Assembly (NCBI RefSeq): GCF_006274605.1
Contig: NZ_CP040846.1
Coordinates: 1,185,041 to 1,249,040, forward strand
Direction of reading: 5' to 3'
Origin: Thermococcus indicus
GTDB taxonomy: Archaea; Methanobacteriota_B; Thermococci; Thermococcales; Thermococcaceae
DNA length: 64,000 nt
Made by a program: the position numbers and the translations under genes. A model generated the notes under the pieces. That model was not told the DNA's origin and ran no database searches. It worked only from the letters and a program-made list of their open reading frames with translations. Each line of letters opens with the position of its first letter. Within the stretch, counting starts at the first letter, position 1. This document shows, in pieces, positions 1 to 29,684 of this stretch.

Positions 1-1733
1 AGGATTTTTTTGACTACTCCATCCTTTGGGGCGGGAATCTCGTTCTCCATCTTCATTGCCTCGAGGACGACCAACCCCTGACCGGTTTTGACCGAGTCTC
101 CCTCCTTGACGAGTATTCTCAAAATCTTGCCGGGCATTGGGGCAGTAACAAGGCCCTCACCGGCAGGAGCGGGAGTCGAGACAGGAGCAACCGAAGCCGG
201 AGCAGGGACCGCCGTGGGGATGGGTACAGGGGCAGTGGCTGTTTTCGGAGCACTGGGTGGAGTCGAAGCCCCCGCTATCTGGGGCAGGTACCTGAGGGCA
301 CTCAGGTCGATGCCCTCAACGCCGACCTCGAATTCGACGCCGTCCACGTAGACCTTGAACCTCTGAACCGTGGGCGGCAGCTCAGGCTTCTTCCTGCCCT
401 CCTTCCTGGCCCTGAAGAACTCCCTGGCTATCTGCGGGAAGAGGCAGTAGGTCAGAACATCCTCCTCCCTCTCCAGGTAGCCCAGCTCCTCAAGCTCCTT
501 TCTGCATTTCTCCAGCGCGGGTGCGAGCAACTCTCCAGGTCTTACGGTTATGGGTTCCTCCTCCCCCAGGACCTTTGCCCGCAGCTCGGGGTTTATCTCC
601 CCCGGCGGCCTTCCGTAGAGTCCCTTGATGTAGTTCTTGACCTCCTCGGTTATTCTCTCGTACCTTCCAAAGAGGACGTTGAGAACCGCCTGCGTTCCGA
701 CTATCTGGCTGGTCGGCGTCACCAGCGGCGGCCATCCAAGGTCTTCCCTGACGCGCGGTATCTCCTCCAGAACCTCCTGGAGCCGGTCTAAAGCTTTCAT
801 CTCGCCGAGCTGGCTTATGAGGTTGGAGTACATCCCGCCGGGAACCTGGTACTTCAGAACGTAGGGGTTCACCATGAGGGCCTCCCTGTGGAGCATTCCT
901 GAGTATTTCTCGTCTAGGAGCCTCTTCAGGTACCTCGAAACCTCGTGGATGAGCTCCCTGTCGAGGTGGCTCCCAACCGCTTCCGGCAGGGCGTGCCAGA
1001 TGGTCTGTATGCCCGGTTGAGCCGTTCCAAAGGCGAGTGGACTTATCGCGGTGTCTATGTAGTCCGCCCCGGCCTCGACGGCCTTGAGGTACGTTGCGAC
1101 GGCCATTCCGGTGGTGGAATGGGTGTGAACGTTTACGGGAACACCGTAGCGTTCCTTTATCTCGCTCACCAGCTCATAGGCCTTCCAGGGCGTCAGCAGG
1201 GCCGCCATGTCCTTGATGGTGATGACATCAACGTCCAGGGCGAGCAGTTCTTCCACCTTCTTCATGTAGTACTCGAGCGTGAACACCTTGCCCGTCGTGT
1301 AGGCTATCGCACCCTGAACCTCTGCGCCAACTTCTTTCGCCTTCCTTATCGCCACCTCCATGTTCCTGACGTCGTTTAGGGCATCGAATATTCTGAAGAT
1401 GTCTATTCCGTTCCTGTGGGCCAGCTCGACGAATTTTTCGACCACGTCGTCCGGATAGTGGCGGTAGCCGACGACGTTCTGCCCGCGGAGGAGCATCTGA
1501 AGCTTCGTCTTCCTTATGTGCTCTCTGAGGAGCCTCAGCCTCTCCCAGGGATCCTCCCGGAGGTAGCGGATGCAGACGTCGAAGGTAGCTCCTCCCCAGA
1601 CCTCCATGGAGTAGAAGCCGATTTTATCCATCTTCTCGGCTACTGCCAGCATGTCGTCAGTTATGAGTCGCGTCGCTATGAGGGACTGGTGAGCGTCCCT
1701 AAACGTTGTATCTATTATCTCAACCCTGCTCAT
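1..1733 (-). CDS. Biotin-dependent carboxyltransferase (oxaloacetate decarboxylase alpha / pyruvate carboxylase B type), 3' end cut
   Basis: Translation from the ATG at 1733-1731 gives a DRE-TIM-type carboxyltransferase. It opens MSRVEIIDTTFRDAHQS, then shows the metal site HTHSTTGMA and the TIKDMA lysine that is carbamylated in this family. An Ala/Pro-rich linker (about 170-270 on the plus strand) leads to a biotinyl domain with the EAMKMEN biotinylation motif near position 50. The window edge removes only about the last 15-20 residues of that domain. The family moves CO2 between biotin and pyruvate or oxaloacetate and usually needs a partner subunit, which is not seen here. A biotin protein ligase lies 1.1 kb away. 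Which substrate is used cannot be decided from sequence. Confidence 0.85.
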   Translation of the reverse strand, partial: MSRVEIIDTTFRDAHQSLIATRLITDDMLAVAEKMDKIGFYSMEVWGGATFDVCIRYLREDPWERLRLLREHIRKTKLQMLLRGQNVVGYRHYPDDVVEKFVELAHRNGIDIFRIFDALNDVRNMEVAIRKAKEVGAEVQGAIAYTTGKVFTLEYYMKKVEELLALDVDVITIKDMAALLTPWKAYELVSEIKERYGVPVNVHTHSTTGMAVATYLKAVEAGADYIDTAISPLAFGTAQPGIQTIWHALPEAVGSHLDRELIHEVSRYLKRLLDEKYSGMLHREALMVNPYVLKYQVPGGMYSNLISQLGEMKALDRLQEVLEEIPRVREDLGWPPLVTPTSQIVGTQAVLNVLFGRYERITEEVKNYIKGLYGRPPGEINPELRAKVLGEEEPITVRPGELLAPALEKCRKELEELGYLEREEDVLTYCLFPQIAREFFRARKEGRKKPELPPTVQRFKVYVDGVEFEVGVEGIDLSALRYLPQIAGASTPPSAPKTATAPVPIPTAVPAPASVAPVSTPAPAGEGLVTAPMPGKILRILVKEGDSVKTGQGLVVLEAMKMENEIPAPKDGVVKKI

Positions 1734-2719: not shown

Positions 2720-2796
2720 TATTCTTTTGGGGATTTAAGGTTTTCCTTGACGGAAAGTTGTTTAAGTCAGAACTGAGAAGTTCCACCGGTGATTCG

Positions 2797-3519
2797 ATGC
2801 CAGAACCGGACAGTAAGCTTATCGGTCGTAAAATAATCCGCCTGCCTGAGGTTGACTCCACCAACGAGTACGCGAAGCGAATAGTGCAGGATGTCCCGGA
2901 GGGAACGGTTGTCGTGGCGAAGCGGCAGACCGCCGGAAGGGGCAGGAAGGGCCGCTCCTGGACCTCCCCCGAGGGCGGTCTCTGGATGAGCATTATTCTC
3001 AAGCCCCCCAGGGTCGATCCAAGGCTCGTCTTCGTCGGGGCGCTGGCGGTCGTCGATACGCTCGCGGACTTCGGAATAGAGTCCGGGATAAAGTGGCCCA
3101 ACGACGTGTGGGCTGGTGGCAGGAAGATATCGGGAATACTGACCGAGGGAAAGGCCGGGGAGTACAGCATACTGGGAATCGGCCTCAACGTGAACAACGC
3201 CATCCCAGAGGAGCTCAGGGAAAACGCTGTGTCGATGATGCAGTTTACCGGCAGGGAGCTGCCGCTCGACGCCGTTCTTGAGAGGCTCCTGTTCCACCTG
3301 GAGGGATGGTATAGGGTTTTCCTCGAGAGGCCGGACCTGCTGATGGCGAAGGTTCGCGAGAGGGCGTTCATACTGGGGAAGGCCGTCACCGTAACCGAAG
3401 GTGATGAGAAAATCTCTGGCATGGCACTGGACATACTGGACGATGGCTCATTACTCATGAGCATTGACGGACAGTTAAGGAGGATCCTGTATGGGGACGT
3501 TTCGCTGAGGTTCTTCTAG
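2797..3519 (+). CDS. birA: Biotin--[acetyl-CoA-carboxylase] ligase, BirA class without DNA-binding domain
   Basis: The product is 240 aa from the ATG at 2797, which follows GGTGATTCG; longer in-frame starts overlap the aldolase promoter. Visible motifs are the N-terminal VDSTNEYAK, the biotinyl-AMP loop [23 protein letters not shown] with the catalytic lysine, and GIGLNVNN. It activates biotin with ATP and attaches it to the lysine of EAMKMEN-type domains. The likely client is the carboxyltransferase at 1-1733. There is no N-terminal winged helix, so a repressor function is not expected. Confidence 0.92.
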
Positions 3520-3622: not shown

Positions 3623-4915
3623 GTGGGAAAGGGACTTCTGAGGAGGTATCTGGACTACCCGGTTCTCTGGAAGATACTCTGGGGCCTCATTCTGGGCGCA
3701 GTGTTCGGTCTGGTGGCGGCCCACTTCGGCTGGCAGGACGCGGTTGAGACGTACATAAAGCCCTTCGGCGACCTCTTCGTCAGGCTCCTGAAGATGCTCG
3801 TCATGCCGATAGTCCTCGCGTCCCTTGTGGTGGGTGCATCAAGCATCAGCCCCGCCAGGTTGGGCCGCGTGGGCGTCAAGATCGTCGTTTACTACCTGTT
3901 TACCTCGGCGTTTGCGGTGTTCTTCGGCCTGCTCATGGGCAACCTCTTCCATGTGGGGAGCGGGGTTGACCTTGGAACCGGCGCCGGCAAGGCCATCGAG
4001 GCCCAGCCGCCGTCCCTGGTTGACACTCTCCTGAACATAGTGCCGACAAACCCCTTTGAGTCGCTCTCCAGCGGTGCGGTTCTTCAGACGATATTCTTTG
4101 CGATAGTCCTTGGGATAGCCCTCACGTACCTCATCAACAGGGAGGACGAGAGACTCAGGACGGCAGGAACGACACTTCTCAGGGCCTTTGACGGCCTTGC
4201 CGAGGCGATGTACCTCATAGTTGGCGGTGTCATGCAGTACGCACCGATAGGCGTCTTCGCGCTCATAGCCTACGTCATGGCAATCCAGGGTACGAAGGTC
4301 ATCGGGCCGCTGACAACGGTCGTTCTGGCGGTTTACGTCGGTTTGGTCCTTCAGATACTGCTTGTTTATGCCGTTCTGCTCAAAATCTTTGGTATCGACC
4401 CGGTGAAGTTCCTCAAAAGGGCAAAGGACGCCATGCTGACGGCCTTCGTCACGAGGAGCTCCAGCGGAACGCTGCCGGTCACGATGCGCGTTGCGGAGGA
4501 GGGGATGGGCATCGACAGGGGAATATTCTCCTTCACGCTGCCCCTCGGTGCGACGATAAACATGGACGGAACCGCGCTCTACCAGGGGGTTACGGTCCTG
4601 TTCGTCGCATACGCCATCGGCCAGCCGCTTTCACTGAGCCAGCAGCTCGTGGTTGTTCTCACGGCGGTTCTGGCCTCGATAGGAACTGCAGGAGTTCCCG
4701 GAGCTGGGGCGATAATGCTCGCCATGGTCCTCCAGAGCGTTGGCCTCGACCTCACTGCCGGAAGTCCGGTAGCCCTCGCCTACGCCATGATACTCGGCAT
4801 TGACGCCATCCTGGACATGGGCAGGACGATGGTGAACGTCACCGGCGACCTCGCGGGAACAACGATAGTTGCCAAGACCGAGGGAGAGCTGGACGAGTCG
4901 AAGTGGAAGGGCTGA
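3623..4915 (+). CDS. Sodium-coupled aspartate/dicarboxylate symporter (GltTk/GltPh family)
   Basis: The product is 430 aa from a GTG start at 3623 preceded by GGGGGTGG; this matches the start and length of the crystallised Thermococcus homologue as I recall it. The family hallmarks are present: the hairpin-1 serine-rich tip [10 protein letters not shown], the sodium/substrate motif [10 protein letters not shown], the hairpin-2 tip GTAGVPGAG, and the substrate-contacting [12 protein letters not shown]. Eight membrane spans plus two re-entrant hairpins are expected. The protein is a trimeric elevator importer of aspartate coupled to Na+. It stands alone with its own promoter near 3545-3565. Confidence 0.92.
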
Positions 4916-7548: not shown

Positions 7549-10500
7549 ATGATGAAACTTCCGGAACTGAAACCAAATGAGATTGCCCGCTTTTTTGAGC
7601 TTTACGAGTGCCCTCAATACATAAAACTCCTTTATGAGAAAAAGAGTGGCAAACTTGACAACTATTACTGTGTATTGGGTATCAAAAGTCGCGTGGACGA
7701 TGTTCTCGTTAGTTGGGGTGCCAAATTTGAAGAGATTCTCCTCGAGGAGTTACAGGCATTGTTTTCCAATTCAGAGTTTTACGGCCTCTTTAAGAAAACA
7801 AAAACCGAAAAATCTCCTAGTCGAGTATTCTTCGAAAGGAATTATCCCGACACCTGTGTTTACATTGACTCGGAAAAGGATTGTGTAGAAAAAAGCAAGA
7901 GCTATTAAGAAATCTATCCCGGGAAGTCCCAACCATAATCTATCAACCCTGTCTAAAAGGAACCATTGGAGCATTTCCCGTCGTGGGAAGGGCAGACTTC
8001 ATTGTGGCGGTTCCAGAAAACGAACGTTTCACCTTTTACGTTTTGGAGGCCAAATTCACAAAAGAGGAGAAGCTTTTCCATAGATTCCAAGCGATAATTT
8101 ACGCTTATCTCCTGAATCAGGTTTTAGACGGCCTCAAAATCGATGGAGAAATAAAGTTGGCGGTTGTAACCAAGGGAGCCCCACTAACTGAGTGGCCACC
8201 GACGGGAACCCTGAGCTTTCCCCAGGAGGTAGAGGAGTACATTTTAACCCTAGAGAACAAGCTGGGAGAAGACGGCCCGTTTTATGCCATGTTGAACTCA
8301 GAAAAAGCCGACCTCTGGCTTACAATGAGGTGCGCTGAGTGTCCATTCGAACCCGTCTGCATAGCTAAAGCCGTTGAGAGAAGAGACTTGGGGCTTCTTG
8401 GAATTCAGCCGGGCTATCAAAAAGTTTTCAGAGAGGCGGGAGTCAAAACCATTAATGACCTTGCCGATCTCTACGAGTTTCCCGTTGATAAGAAGGGTCG
8501 TTCATGGCCCACTAATTTCAAACGTCCCATAACCAAAAAACCTGAGGTAGTTGCCCACATAGTTGGAAAGACTGAACTCAGCAATCTTCCTAAGCTTTCT
8601 AAGATGGCTCAGGTAATAAAAAAGGAGATTGAGAGAAAAACAAATGACGTCAGACCCGAATTTATCCCCGGAACTGGCTACAGCTTGCCTGTAGAGAATG
8701 GATATTTTTACCCAGAGAACTCGCTTGTCAGGGTTTATCTCTTTGTTCAGCACAATCCGATACACGACACTCTGATTGGAATATCCGGCGTTGTGGAGAA
8801 CTCCGATTCCAAGCGGATAAGAGTCTTGGCCGAAGTCGCTGATGAAATTCCAGAGGGAGAAGAAGAGGCCCTCAAAATGGAGAGGAACCTCCTAGTGAAA
8901 TTTTTCACAGAAGTCCTCTATGCCATCATAGATGTTGCGCCAAACTTAGAGGGACAATATTATCGTGACCCTTACGCGAGAAACAAGAAGGGGGAACCCG
9001 CTTTCATGGTGGGTTCACGTGACGATGTGTTTCTCCACCTGTACTTTTACAGTAGATTTCACAGAGACAAGCTAATGGAGGCAGTGAAACGTCATAGGGA
9101 AGTCTACGGTATGAATGCCATCCGCTCATTTCTGAGTCTCCGGAAGGCGATTGACCAAGAAGGATATTCAATTATCAAGGATGAACTGATAAAGCGTCAT
9201 GCCCTTAGGTTCCCTCCGGGACTGGGGATAATTCCTGTGGTTCACCAATTTCAGCTTAACTGGGGGGAGGCTCCAGAAGAGTACCAGGGCAATGCACCCA
9301 GTTGTTCACATGGGGGTTGGTTTAGATGGAATGGGTTAGAAGAAAAGTTTGAGGACCTTTTCAGGTTCCTCGTTGAGAAGGATGAAAATGGCCGGTTGAT
9401 ACTGTTTAAGGAAGATAACTCGTGTCCCCTGTACAACATAGGAAAACACTCATTTGGGGGATATGGAAGGATTCCACCCCTTTATCCTATCTTCCATAGG
9501 GAAGACGAGCAAGTGCCGCTTTACGTGATATGGAATGCATTTACCAAGAACAAACAGGAGGAGCTGAAACATCTACTCAAGTACTTAGCGCTTGCCGTTA
9601 GGCATATTGAGCGTTCAATACCTGAAAGCACAAAGGACAGGTTTGTTAAAAAAACTCCGTTTAGCCTCCAGGACCTCGTCGATTTTAACATAGAGAATGT
9701 CAGTCTGGCGGAGGTTCTTGAAGAATACCAGAAACTCGAGTACAGCAAAAGGAAAGAGGAACTCCAAACTCACCACCGGCTTCCTCTCTCAGTTCGCGTG
9801 TTGAGTGGACGTAGCATAGTGATTAAGATCTCTAAGGTGGAAAAAGATAAGGGCAGGAAGATAAAAATAATCGGGCATGTAGTCCTTCCGCCAACCGACG
9901 ATGAAGGTATCTGGAGGGATTATGCCTCATCAGAAGCCCCGTTGTTTAGTTTAGATGAATCCTCATGGGTTGTCATTACCCCCATCAAAAACGAATGTAA
10001 AAAAGAAGGGGGCATGTGTCTCAGGCTCGTAATAACAGACAAGAAAGATCCAGCTTTTGAAATATCAAGATCCCCTCTTGCGGTGATCAATAGGTTTGAT
10101 AGAAAAACAGGGGAGGTTGAACTTTCCTTCCTTCCCCTTCGTCAGCATGGGCCGTTTTTGTTAAGCCACTCCTTCCCGAAAAATGACTATTCCGGAATTC
10201 AGATTAATGGTGAAACGATTTCAGGTGGGAGTTATTTAGCCATCGACCCCGCTATGGATGATCTTAACATGAACCGGGCCTACACGGTTCTCGAAGAAAT
10301 CCTCAAGGGTTCACGTCATCATTATCTCTACAAAAAACTGCAGGACATCTATTCATCAGAGAGGTTTACCCATGGGGACATTAAGAAATACCGGATACAT
10401 CTGTGGGAGAGAGAACACATTGAAGAGTTCGTGAATCTCCTCGAAAATGTTGGCAAAGTAAGCGATGGGGTCCATGCTCCAAACTCCAGCCAGAAGGGTT

Positions 10501-16008: not shown

Positions 16009-16272
16009 TCCCCTGCCCCCACAACCGTTGCATTCCGCCTCAAATTTTGAGGTGGCATTACGCTCACCAACAACGGCGGGATATTACACAGTAGAAACCA
16101 AGGGTATATTTCTTTTACTATTGTTCCACTACGTTGCGGAAATAGTTGCTCATCTTTATATCATCCATGAAGGGTAATTAACATTTTTGCTCGTCACCTC
16201 AACTTCACGTGTGTGCGCTATTCGTGTGTGCGCTTTGAATTTTTTCAAAAAAATCTTATATTATCAGTGAAC

Positions 16273-16293
16273 CTGCGTTTGATTCAAACGCAG
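16273..16293. repeat. Perfect 10-1-10 palindrome
   Basis: CTGCGTTTGA and TCAAACGCAG pair perfectly around a single T. It lies 265 bp upstream of the ADP-ribosylglycohydrolase start and 396 bp upstream of the antitoxin-like gene. It could be an operator or a structural hairpin; there is no run of T after it on either strand to suggest a terminator. Confidence 0.75.
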
Positions 16294-16346
16294 AAAGTAG
16301 CGTTAATCATGTGTTCGCACAATGTTAATGCGCAACAACTCACGCA

Positions 16347-16460
16347 AAAACGCTACAAGTAGCGTGAAAGATTCACGCTGATTCTTAGAGAATTATAGAT
16401 TTTTTGAAAAAATTCAGAAAAAATAAAAAATAAACACACACGATGAAATTGTGCACGATT
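16347..16460 (+). repeat. Left arm of 114-bp perfect inverted repeat
   Basis: By eye, this stretch is the exact reverse complement of 17371-17484. The arm is itself a string of small palindromes: CGCTAC-AA-GTAGCG, GCGTGAA-AGA-TTCACGC, ATTCT-TAG-AGAAT and ATTTTTT-G-AAAAAAT, followed by an A-rich stretch and GTGCAC. The outer flanks (CACGC left, CACGT right) partly extend the symmetry. The arms enclose about 910 bp holding only the convergent toxin and antitoxin-like genes. Confidence 0.9.
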
Positions 16461-16668
16461 CTAACCGACTTGACGACAATGATAACCTTGTTTTCCTTGC
16501 ACTGTCGAAAGGTTTCTGACCTCTTCCGCTCTGGGGGTTAAATGCACACGAATCAAGACTATAACTATTATGATCCGTCATCCTGTGCGCACCTCGGCGA
16601 ACTGATCCAATGGGTTTAGGCGGGTAAAAACGTATTTAACCCGAGGACAAGCCACAATTGGTGGGAGA

Positions 16669-16908
16669 ATGAGTGAAGTTATTAACCCTAACGTGCTTCT
16701 CCAAAAGACAGACCAGAAGGAGAAGAAATTAGAAAAACTCAGGCTTGAGGTTCTAAAAATGAGAGCTGAAAGCCTCTCCGTTGAGGAAGTAGACGAAGAA
16801 ACCATTAAAGACCTCAAAAAGAGGTTTGAGGAGTATAAGAGCGGGAAAGCGGAAGTAGTTAGCGGAGACAAAGCAGTTAGGATACTCTCGGAGATTTTGG
16901 AGGATTAA
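16669..16908 (+). CDS. Small antitoxin-like protein facing a RelE toxin
   Basis: The product is 79 aa, highly charged and predicted mostly helical (KTDQKEKKLEKLRLEVLK, DEETIKDLKKRFEEY), in the manner of RelB-type antitoxins, although no family motif is decisive. The ATG at 16669 follows GGTGGGAGA, with a TATA-like TATTTAACC about 35 bases upstream. Its 3' end overlaps the 3' end of the RelE-like gene by 32 bp on the opposite strand, which is unusual since antitoxin and toxin normally share an operon. Function is inferred from size, charge and context only. Confidence 0.65.
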   Translation: MSEVINPNVLLQKTDQKEKKLEKLRLEVLKMRAESLSVEEVDEETIKDLKKRFEEYKSGKAEVVSGDKAVRILSEILED

Positions 16909-17176
16909 CGCTTATAGGCCCTTCTCTCGGCCCTATTTTAGCCAAATAAATAACCTTATCCTCCCAATCAACCCCGTAAAAAACCCTATATCCCCCAAGC
17001 CGTAAGACATAGGCCGGAAAGCCCTTAACCTTCATGCTCTTAACTCTTCCCACGTCGTAACCCCTGGGAACAGGAGAATCAGGATCTACCCTTAAAGCCT
17101 CGATGGATTCAACCAATTTCTTAATGTGTGCTGGTTCCTTAGTGTCTACCTTAATAAATTGGGCGGGAGGGGACAT
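16877..17176 (-). CDS. RelE/ParE-superfamily toxin-like protein
   Basis: The product is 99 aa. The C-terminal half carries the RelE fold signature seen in archaeal RelE: YVLRLGGYRVFYGVDW followed by EDKVIYLAKIGPREG. RelE toxins cleave mRNA in the ribosomal A site. The N-terminal region (HIKKLVESIEALR) fits the helical hairpin of the family. No strong ribosome binding site precedes the ATG, and the CTTTTTA just upstream may indicate a leaderless or weak transcript. Two 25-bp direct repeats (17233-17301) lie upstream. It converges with the antitoxin-like gene. Confidence 0.72.
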   Translation of the reverse strand: MSPPAQFIKVDTKEPAHIKKLVESIEALRVDPDSPVPRGYDVGRVKSMKVKGFPAYVLRLGGYRVFYGVDWEDKVIYLAKIGPREGPISVNPPKSPRVS

Positions 17177-17232
17177 TAAAAAGTTTTCAGAAGGGGTAAT
17201 TAATTAAGAAAGGAGATTTACTTTAATACAAA

Positions 17233-17301
17233 CTCTTCGATGCGGTGAAAAATTAAGAAGGTGAAGCAATTAAAAGCTCTTTGATGTGTGGAAAAATTAA
17301 G
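17233..17301. repeat. Pair of 25-bp direct repeats upstream of the RelE-like gene
   Basis: 17233-17257 and 17277-17301 match at 21 of 25 positions, sharing the core GAAAAATTAAG and CTCTT-GATG-G. The spacing between starts is 44 bp, about four helical turns. Lying 57 bp upstream of the toxin start, they are candidate binding sites for the antitoxin or another regulator. Confidence 0.6.
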
Positions 17302-17370
17302 CGTAAAGTATTATTCACAATAGGGCATATACAATCACCTGCACTCGCATGCTCAGCGTTGAGGTCACAA

Positions 17371-17484
17371 AATCGTGCACAATTTCATCGTGTGTGTTTA
17401 TTTTTTATTTTTTCTGAATTTTTTCAAAAAATCTATAATTCTCTAAGAATCAGCGTGAATCTTTCACGCTACTTGTAGCGTTTT
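17371..17484 (-). repeat. Right arm of 114-bp perfect inverted repeat
   Basis: Reverse complement of 16347-16460 with no mismatch seen. Outside it, more palindromes follow, for example TCACAT-T-ATGTGA (about 17505-17517), and a degenerate copy of the arm's A-rich/CACACGA end (about 17533-17560). The arm's integrity implies recent duplication, ongoing gene conversion or functional constraint. Confidence 0.9.
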
Positions 17485-17630
17485 CACGTGAGAAGTTAAG
17501 CGTTCACATTATGTGAGCACACAAAATTATTTTCAAAAAATAAACACACGAGATGTGCACACACGTGGGTTCGCGCTGACTCTTGGAGAATGAGAACGTG
17601 TATTCGTTATAGTAGAACCTCTGCAAACCA

Positions 17631-17710
17631 TTGCAAACCTATGCAGACCTGTGCAAACTTCTGCAAAAACCTCTGCAAACCACCGCCAACTCCTGCAGGC
17701 CTATGCAAAA
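17631..17710 (+). repeat. Degenerate 10-bp tandem repeat array (TGCAAACC type)
   Basis: About eight units resembling NTGCAAACCN follow each other at 10-bp steps, with one 2-bp slip after the fifth unit. Examples start near 17631, 17641, 17651, 17661 and 17672. The period equals one helical turn, so all units face the same side of the duplex, as in iterons or cooperative operators. It is not a multiple of three, which argues against a coding origin. Confidence 0.65.
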
Positions 17711-17985: not shown

Positions 17986-18123
17986 TCAATCCCATGAATC
18001 CGTTCGCAGAGGTGCGCGCGTTTTCACCGGGATGGTCTTCCGGACGCCATCCCCCTCAAACTGGAGCGTGCCCTTAACGCACCTAAGCGTCCCGGGCCGG
18101 GTTATGTAGAGCGGTCTTTTCAT
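17986..18123 (-). pseudogene. N-terminal fragment of cas1
   Basis: From the ATG at 18123 the minus strand encodes MKRPLYITRPGTL, then TLQFEGDGVRKTIPV, which matches the N-terminal beta-domain pattern of Cas1 (KRPLYI-x-G-L, then TL-F, then IPV). After IPV the frame loses similarity (KTRAPLRTDSWD) and stops at 17986, 45 codons in all against about 320 for an intact Cas1. It begins 16 bp beyond the degenerate last repeat of the small array, the place expected for adaptation genes. No remaining Cas1 core, Cas2 or Cas4 was found. This is probably a relic of a lost adaptation module. Confidence 0.6.
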
Positions 18124-18138
18124 CCCGTTTCCCCCAGC

Positions 18139-18521
18139 TATGCTATACAATTCTGTTCTACGGAAACTGAGCGTGGAAGTTAGTGAGAAATTTATGGCTA
18201 TGCTGGTTACGTTTCCACACAATCCTGTTCTACGGAAACGGAAATCTGGGTGTGGAAGTTTGAGATACAGGGCTACGAGGTGTTTCCACACAACTCTGTT
18301 CTACGGAAACTTACGTTTTCCTCTACAAAGGGATTTCCTCAGGCAGGAGAACGTTTCCACACAACTCTGTTCTACGGAAACGAGGGGTATAAGAGGAGGG
18401 ATTATCGGTGAAGTCCATCAATGTTTCCACACAACTCTGTTCTACGGAAACGTGAAAGACATGCCGAGAACTTCATACGCCATTAGGTTCGAGTTTCCAC
18501 ACAATCCTGTTCTACGGAAAC
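18139..18521 (-). CRISPR. CRISPR array 1: six 29-bp repeats, five spacers
   Basis: Repeats lie at 18139-18167 (5' half degenerate), 18211-18239, 18282-18310, 18353-18381, 18423-18451 and 18493-18521. On the plus strand they begin GTTTCCACACAA and end TTCTACGGAAAC, with T/C variation at two central positions. Spacers are 41-43 bp. The degenerate repeat at the left end marks the trailer, and a TATA-like box lies right of the array, so it is transcribed on the minus strand. Repeats are related to, but shorter than, those of array 2 (GTTCTACGG replaces GTGACTACTG). Confidence 0.95.
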
Positions 18522-18580
18522 TCTGGGTGTTATTGCCGTGTTTCTCATGTATCCCTCTCTCTTTGATTCTATTTAAGACT
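18522..18580 (-). promoter_or_regulatory. Leader/promoter of CRISPR array 1
   Basis: On the minus strand CTTAAATA (complement of 18570-18577) sits 48 bp before the first repeat, matching the arrangement at array 2 where the same octamer sits 50 bp away. A second TATA-like stretch, TTATAAAT, occurs near 18609-18616. Confidence 0.6.
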
Positions 18581-26897: not shown

Positions 26898-29684
26898 CTG
26901 AACACACAATTCTGTAGCTACTGAAACGGCTAAGATCAGGGCCTACATCACTGCCAGGAACTCCTTTCCACACAATTCTGTGACTACTGAAACGACGGAT
27001 AGTAGTCTATGATTACAGTAACTACTGTGACTTTCCACACAATTCTGTGACTACTGAAACGTTTGATGCCTGCTCAGCCATATCCAATATTTGTGAACTT
27101 TCCACACAATTCTGTGACTACTGAAACATATGATGGAGGTCATGGCTATTGAACTGAGGAAGATCTTTCCACACAATTCTGTGACTACTGAAACCTGAAA
27201 AATGAGGACGACTGAGCTCGCCTGGAAACTTTTTCCACACAATTCTGTGACTACTGAAACTCCGCGACGCCTCGACCGGAGAAGTCCTGAATGGGGTTTT
27301 CCACACAATTCTGTGACTACTGAAACTTAACAGAGAATGATAAGGCCGTTATCCATAGAGTTCGTTTTCCACACAATTCTGTGACTACTGAAACACGAGG
27401 ATAGTCATTGACCCTGAGACTGGCAAGATAATGTGTTTTCCACACAATTCTGTGACTACTGAAACCTTACTCTGTGTTAGGACTCCCACGAGCGAGATTA
27501 GTTTTCCACACAATTCTGTGACTACTGAAACAAAGGGGGCCTCGTCATTGACGTGACATTCGACGATGTTTTCCACACAATTCTGTGACTACTGAAACGC
27601 TTGTTGAATCTCTTTGAGCCAGTAGCGAGGTAGTTCGTTTTCCACACAATTCTGTGACTACTGAAACTTGAGCGGGTAAAGCGGGTTGAGGTCGTTACCG
27701 AGCCAGGTTTTCCACACAATTCTGTGACTACTGAAACGGTTTTCGTTCTTTATCTTGGGTTTTGGTTTGATTTGGTTTTCCACACAATTCTGTGACTACT
27801 GAAACTGAGTTTTACGGTGCGTAGTCAGAGGTATGTGTCTAGGTTTTCCACACAATTCTGTGACTACTGAAACAACGAGGATACAGGTTCCACTCACATG
27901 CAGATTTTACGTTTTCCACACAATTCTGTGACTACTGAAACGTTTGATGATGAAATCTATGAGCTTGAAGAGGAGGTGTTTTCCACACAATTCTGTGACT
28001 ACTGAAACTTCCGCACACCATAGAGAACCCGACCCCTGCCCAGAGTTTTCCACACAATTCTGTGACTACTGAAACCTTCACGGAGAGAAAGGGCTGGTAC
28101 ATCGTTTCGTTCTTTTCCACACAATTCTGTGACTACTGAAACTTATATGCGGGCCTTGGCGTGGCGTCGGTCTCTCCTATCTTTTCCACACAATTCTGTG
28201 ACTACTGAAACGTCGGTGGCAAGTCCTTTAGAGGTGTGCGCCTCGAAGTTTTCCACACAATTCTGTGACTACTGAAACTGTTTGCACGGTATATGAATTT
28301 GCAGGAATGATTGAGTTTTCCACACAATTCTGTGACTACTGAAACTGAAGACCCTTAAGAGTGTTCTTTCAAGGATTAAGAGTTTTCCACACAATTCTGT
28401 GACTACTGAAACGCTTACCTTTGGGACGTTGTTCCTACCACCCCACTTGTTTTCCACACAATTCTGTGACTACTGAAACCCGTATGTAGCTGTCCTGCGC
28501 CGACTGCACGAAGTTCGTTTTCCACACAATTCTGTGACTACTGAAACTATAAAAACGGACAACTAGTAAGCACTACACAACTTGCTTTCCACACAATTCT
28601 GTGACTACTGAAACGACCACTCCCACGAACCCATAACAAAAGTTACAGCATCTTTCCACACAATTCTGTGACTACTGAAACAAGGTGTTAAATGCCCTTT
28701 TAACGCCCTTTATCTCTTCTTTCCACACAATTCTGTGACTACTGAAACATCTGCAACTCCCTCCTTGAGCTCGACTTTTGTGAACTTTCCACACAATTCT
28801 GTGACTACTGAAACGCGGGTTCTCTGGGGCAGTCGTAGCGGCGGCATTTTCCTTTCCACACAATTCTGTGACTACTGAAACCCGGCTGGCGAGCACATAC
28901 TGCACGCACTCATAGCCACTTTCCACACAATTCTGTGACTACTGAAACCACTTGAGAGGGACGTTCTAAGGGTCGAGCTCTGGACTTTCCACACAATTCT
29001 GTGACTACTGAAACATGACCCTCTTGTGATTATCTGGTTTTATTCTCATGACTTTCCACACAATTCTGTGACTACTGAAACCGCCCCTCTCATAAGCCTC
29101 AATCCTAACTTCCACCACCTTTCCACACAATTCTGTGACTACTGAAACTGAAATCGAGGCCAAAAAGTGGGAGTGGTGGTAATAACCTTTCCACACAATT
29201 CTGTGACTACTGAAACCCCTCGCCCGTCGCCTCCGGACCGCGAGGGAGGCTATCTTTCCACACAATTCTGTGACTACTGAAACTCGAGATAACACAAAAA
29301 GCAATTCAGAAGCTCTTCGCTTTCCACACAATTCTGTGACTACTGAAACTTTTGTGAGCTTTACTAACACTGCCATCGACGTCATCTTTCCACACAATTC
29401 TGTGACTACTGAAACTTAACTGCCCCAACTCTGCGAGGAGGGCCTCCGTGTCCCTTTCCACACAATTCTGTGACTACTGAAACTCACCGGCACGGCCCTA
29501 AGCTTGCCGGCTTCTATCGCCTTTCCACACAATTCTGTGACTACTGAAACCTGTTGGTGATTGTAGGTTTGTTGGTGTGGTTCATGCTTTCCACACAATT
29601 CTGTGACTACTGAAACTATTGTGTTCGATGTTGTATTAACTCGCATTGTAGAGGCTTTCCACACAATTCTGTGACTACTGAAAC
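26898..29684 (-). CRISPR. CRISPR array 2: 42 repeats of 30-31 bp, 41 spacers
   Basis: Repeats read on the plus strand as CTTTCCACACAATTCTG followed by TGACTACTGAAAC; starts run from 26898 (degenerate, trailer end) through 26964, 27031 and so on to 29655. Spacers are mostly 35-41 bp. The degenerate repeat at the left and the TATA box at the right give minus-strand transcription; crRNAs would carry a handle ending GTGTGGAAAG, like the Pyrococcus handle ending GAAAG. Repeats 6-25 (27231-28547) start TTTTCC instead of CTTTCC, nearly always with an extra G before them. Confidence 0.97.

Follow-up and report, generated by a model that had tools for sequence, protein, structure and literature searches.

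A probable decayed copy of a convergent, plasmid-type RelBE gene pair between palindromic elements beside a type III CRISPR locus of Thermococcus indicus

The segment at positions 16347-17484 of the 64,000-nucleotide stretch of Thermococcus indicus DNA analysed here (the window) is quite probably a convergent RelBE pair like those on archaeal plasmids of the pEXT9a type, present here as a decayed copy on the chromosome between palindromic elements. The tail-to-tail arrangement of its genes, rightly singled out by the first-pass annotation as unusual for a type II toxin-antitoxin pair, belongs to the gene family and not to the inverted repeat around it, and it is this conserved convergent RelBE variant that is worth following. 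The features concerned are these:

16200..16451, no strand: left flank, an imperfect palindrome of two head-to-head units, U1 (+) and U2 (-)
16310..16460, plus strand: left arm, 151 nt at 93%, with the perfect 114-nt part at 16347-16460
16623..16668, plus strand: promoter-like region of the antitoxin, with a AAAACGTATTTAACC box and GGTGGGAG, kept in nearly all convergent loci
16669..16908, plus strand: RelB-like antitoxin, 79 aa, reading frame open
16877..17176, minus strand: RelE-like toxin remnant, 99-aa frame
17371..17521, minus strand: right arm, 151 nt at 93%, with the perfect 114-nt part at 17371-17484
17386..17555, no strand: right flank, a second imperfect palindrome of two head-to-head units, U3 (+) and U4 (-)
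18024..18123, minus strand: 5' stub of cas1, some 33 codons long, which matches the beginning of an intact cas1 from another genome (G018, L042:4583-4659) at 78% on the nucleotide level

That the two genes form a toxin-antitoxin-like pair holds as far as homology goes (ParE_toxin, Unstab_antitox and chain A of PDB entry 1WMI), but the toxin has lost both its N-terminal helix and its C-terminal motif. It passes the Pfam ParE_toxin profile (6e-6, 27.2 bits against a cut-off of 23) and matches 1WMI chain A at 1.6e-7, compared with 5e-21 for the toxin family profile. This profile match is accompanied neither by the N-terminal helix (the VFVEAKRWL region, missing in alignment with the copies of the resident plasmid, G053 and G009) nor by the C-terminal R..AY motif, as a deletion of one base towards the 3' end of the gene turns EPRGRAYKR into GPREGPISVN... 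and removes the conserved RAYK. Because of the same deletion the frame runs past its normal stop, and the 32-bp overlap with the antitoxin reported at first, although present, is therefore not ancestral (in the plasmid copy the two genes share 4 bp). BLAST homology to the resident plasmid ends at 17136, and the promoter-like box seen before most other toxins has no clear counterpart here. Judged from its sequence, the protein would be a remnant of the RelE/ParE superfamily (aRelE-like) that is probably not a functional member, and it is presumably inactive; with the enclosed toxin degenerate, the idea that it is used for stability is implausible, as is any role as an addiction module.

The antitoxin has kept its frame, promoter-like box and ribosome-binding site, with a dN/dS of 0.2 relative to the plasmid copy, and may therefore still be expressed and useful. 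It is small, passes Pfam Unstab_antitox (PF09720; 3.1e-5, 24.3 bits against a cut-off of 23.3), as a RelB-like protein would, and is homologous to the antitoxins of operonic relBE loci; there is no match between it and 1WMI chain B. Four positions that agree across nine other aligned antitoxins are substituted in the window (E20K, P37S, L46I and E50K), and I14T and M17K fall within a probable coiled coil. When substitutions are polarised by two outgroups, the window lineage has 7 synonymous and 10 non-synonymous changes in the antitoxin and 2 and 7 in the toxin, the plasmid lineage 4 and 3 in the antitoxin and 2 and 3 in the toxin; small as these counts are, the window lineage looks to be under relaxed constraint. 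Elsewhere in the chromosome there is a partial antitoxin of the same family, consisting of the C-terminal half only (L022:810-929, about 1059319-1059427 of the chromosomal contig).

The host itself carries a close relative of the pair. The second of its contigs, 7674 bp long, is a plasmid that encodes a Prim-Pol replication protein, and this resident plasmid bears a convergent pair 89% identical to that of the window over 512 bp. Upstream of the plasmid pair is a perfect tandem duplication of 127 bp (L020:3436-3689), and a shorter TTGCA series occurs at L020:3767-3840. Imperfect 10-bp tandem repeats (AACCTATGCA) likewise lie immediately beyond the right flank of the window, at 17616-17681. We considered whether these TGCA repeats represent a common iteron and set the idea aside, there being only three in-register copies on the plasmid; most other pairs have no TGCA repeats near them.

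Beyond the host, pEXT9a, pMETVU01 and a further 11 genomes carry copies of the pair, and 51 of 94 Thermococcaceae genomes contain a match to the toxin profile. The antitoxin was mapped in 30 retrieved loci plus one locus of genome G024 (L007). Eleven loci with a full-length toxin (L052-L062, the host plasmid included) are convergent, with stop codons overlapping by 4 bp in ten of them and genes placed end to end in the remaining one; together with pEXT9a and pMETVU01 they make 13 intact convergent loci besides the window, from which the G024 locus, convergent but with a broken toxin, is excluded. The intact relatives of this pair are always tail to tail, which is unusual for a RelBE-type system. 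In 19 other relatives, the toxin is immediately preceded on its own strand by a small reading frame, as in a relB-relE operon, and the antitoxin profile is matched by this upstream frame in 13 of the 19. The type II arrangement of one operon, usually with the antitoxin first, is therefore seen in these 19 and departed from in the window and the 13 intact loci. The toxin tree needs two layout changes, and a single convergent clade is not rejected (p-AU 0.15).

Nearly all convergent antitoxins are preceded by a conserved AAAACATATTTAACC-type box, and most of the convergent toxins by a T/A-rich one, some 45 bases ahead of the start; with promoter-like boxes upstream of both genes, each gene probably has its own promoter. 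Runs of T can terminate archaeal transcription. At least five T follow closely after the antitoxin stop in 8 of 14 aligned loci (window included), and in convergent loci such runs could act as terminators. Two loci, L057 (G059) and L007 (G024), have a single antitoxin with a toxin gene on either side, the additional RelE-like gene being located immediately upstream of the antitoxin and on its strand. Viral contigs yielded no relative of the toxin. A literature search on convergent type II pairs in archaea, with most subscription papers outside its scope, returned nothing relevant, and we make no claim of priority.

The structure enclosing the window pair is more elaborate than a simple inverted repeat. 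The perfect repeat described in the first-pass annotation stands: 16347-16460 and 17371-17484 are exact reverse complements over 114 of 114 nt, with 910 nt between them, a match whose chance occurrence is negligible (p^114 of about 2e-68 per position pair). Homology extends outward from it, over 151 nt at 93% and then as weaker similarity out to 16193 and 17580. Compared with itself, the left flank (16200-16451) is self-complementary at 62.5% over 259 columns (E=1.8e-12) and contains several small hairpins, and the right flank (17386-17555) is self-complementary at 61.5% over 182 columns (E=2.6e-4). As single-stranded DNA both fold far better than shuffled sequences (z=-6.1 on the left, z=-4.7 on the right). 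Since there is also a direct-orientation match between the two flanks (65% over 115 columns), they consist of four copies of one unit, laid out as [U> <U]-genes-[U> <U]. The four half-flanks were used to make a profile, which matches those four by construction and places the units at 16186-16329 (+), 16313-16466 (-), 17366-17518 (+) and 17464-17582 (-). The outer edge of the 114-nt identity is sharp, with similarity beyond it at the level of diverged unit copies. The identical tract would therefore reflect gene conversion, or recent (inverted) copying, between two older palindromic flanks.

Nothing like these flanks was recovered elsewhere. A BLAST search of the host genome with the left flank returned only the two arms and short A/T-rich matches, the arms are absent from 93 other Thermococcaceae genomes, and phage and plasmid collections hold no credible match to them; copies with other cargo, which the first-pass annotation had proposed to look for, were thus not found. 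The unit profile gives nothing above 20 bits in 61 genomes of the genus beyond the four units of the window. An insertion-sequence or MITE family was ruled out as the identity of the arms, there being no additional copies; arm matches of 31-34 bp elsewhere are A/T-rich low-complexity sequence, and viral contigs contain three exact 16-base matches, by our estimate no more than chance would produce in a collection of that size. Credible matches in an Rfam search were confined to CRISPR repeats. Genome G018 has a hairpin-rich stretch beside its CRISPR-cas locus, near cas1 (L042:2371-2600), part of which (L042:2371-2475) gives a weak match to the unit profile (14 bits; E=9e-4 in 30 kb, 0.05 genome-wide); it is not a long palindrome and is retained as a lead only.

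The segment is flanked on the left by an ADP-ribosylglycohydrolase gene and on the right by a type III-A CRISPR locus, whose Csx1 gene is the neighbour on that side. In the genus, host included, these genes occur in 7 and 17 of 61 genomes, respectively, and in no other of the 61 do they occur together; there is consequently no empty site for comparison. The cas1 stub adjoins a CRISPR array (18136-18522), and the G018 counterpart has a full-length cas1, cas2 and a further array (L042:2700-4660) that are missing in the window. With a stub here and complete cas1-cas2 there, the segment sits in a scar of cas1-cas2 loss. A second array of 37 repeats (26960-29410) lies beside the csm genes. The spacers of both window arrays have no match among the resident plasmid and the related plasmids and loci tested.

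We propose that the pair came from a pEXT9a-type plasmid and now lies, decayed, in this scar, at the trailer end of a type III CRISPR array, its arms being remnants of a palindromic region rather than mobility ends. The perfect 114-nt repeat counts against seeing the segment as a relic, as it implies some recent activity at the arms, and so does the preserved frame of the antitoxin with its expression signals. The first-pass annotation had suggested that a bounded cassette of this kind could be an invertible segment, a new mobile unit or a selfish insertion. Inversion or movement of the 910-bp segment through the 114-bp arms, by homologous recombination or by a recombinase acting in trans, would account for a sharp-edged identity that recombination between the arms would maintain, and the long palindromic flanks could serve as recombination sites. 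However, there is no further copy of the arms in the host, the 93 other Thermococcaceae genomes, phages or plasmids; neither repeated copies nor an empty site were found in the genomes, phages and plasmids searched; no recombinase was found between the arms, as had been noted from the start; the 13 intact convergent pairs lack arms, none of the other convergent pairs examined having long enclosing ones; and the cargo is decayed. A cassette of this sort seems very improbable. Homologous recombination between the arms could still invert the segment. The flanks could alternatively derive from an integrated plasmid or virus, now extinct, that delivered the pair and whose replication origin, or another structural region, they would represent; this possibility concerns the arms only, is compatible with a relic and seems fairly unlikely to us. 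Large imperfect palindromes do occur in predicted origin regions of pEXT9a-type plasmids (pMETVU01 4409-4573, 72% self-complementary, E=5e-18; pEXT9a 7610-7687), but these share no sequence similarity with the window flanks, so that kinship between the two was ruled out, and no other gene recognisable as plasmid-derived was found beside the pair. In its predicted origin region pMETVU01 (L083) has two such palindromes, 4409-4573 and about 4737-4900, with common end motifs, and similar TGTACA-centred structures occur in pEXT9a.

The remaining alternatives concern the antitoxin. Anti-addiction, in which an intact chromosomal antitoxin neutralises the RelE of a resident plasmid or of incoming relatives and so permits plasmid loss, is an established concept for bacterial type II systems, covered by reviews (e.g. 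PMC2654758). The presence of the 89% identical plasmid pair in the same host, the retention of the antitoxin's promoter-like box, ribosome-binding site and frame beside a broken toxin, and its dN/dS of 0.2 against the plasmid copy all favour such a role, but the four altered, otherwise invariant positions (E20K and E50K among them), the changes I14T and M17K in the probable coiled coil and a relaxed-looking substitution pattern speak against it, and on balance we find it rather unlikely. It is doubtful, too, whether a broader reading applies, in which intact convergent relB and relE genes have interlocked stops, separate promoters and control by antisense RNA while the orphan antitoxin of the window confers immunity to the plasmid; as part of it, the convergent pair could conceivably have been rearranged from an operon, with antisense transcripts adding RNA-level control to neutralisation by protein. 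For the intact relatives of the decayed pair proposed here, the anatomy of the loci suggests that each gene would have a separate promoter, that the antitoxin would bind and neutralise the toxin as in RelBE and that the interlocked 3' ends would favour overlapping antisense transcripts.

The intact relatives break the usual type II rule of a single operon with the antitoxin first and shared autoregulation. As convergent pairs on archaeal plasmids and chromosomes have operonic cousins in the same genus, the need for co-transcription can be tested directly, including whether overlapping 3' ends replace its role in keeping a toxin-antitoxin pair safe.

The closest known systems are the RelBE genes of pEXT9a and pMETVU01 (Krupovic et al. 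2013, PMC3543421), in a text that does not mention their convergent arrangement:

pEXT9a, 2791-3087 (plus) and 3084-3365 (minus): 4-bp overlap
pMETVU01, 877-1119 (plus) and 1120-1404 (minus): no overlap

They share protein families and gene convergence with the window pair, but their toxins are full-length and they are carried on plasmids without enclosing arms. The family profile matches 88 residues of aRelE of Pyrococcus horikoshii (PHS013, PDB 1WMI chain A; E=5e-21), including the C-terminal PRGRAYK, whereas the window toxin is without the first-helix region and the RAYK end. Operonic relBE loci of Thermococcus (e.g. L063-L069) have homologous toxin and antitoxin families in the standard type II layout, in which the antitoxin immediately precedes the toxin on one strand, in contrast to the convergent genes of the window. 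Composite and miniature elements with long terminal inverted repeats resemble the window in that repeats bound a short segment; the window segment differs from them in being a single copy with palindromic flanks and no transposase, whose cargo has homologues elsewhere without repeats.
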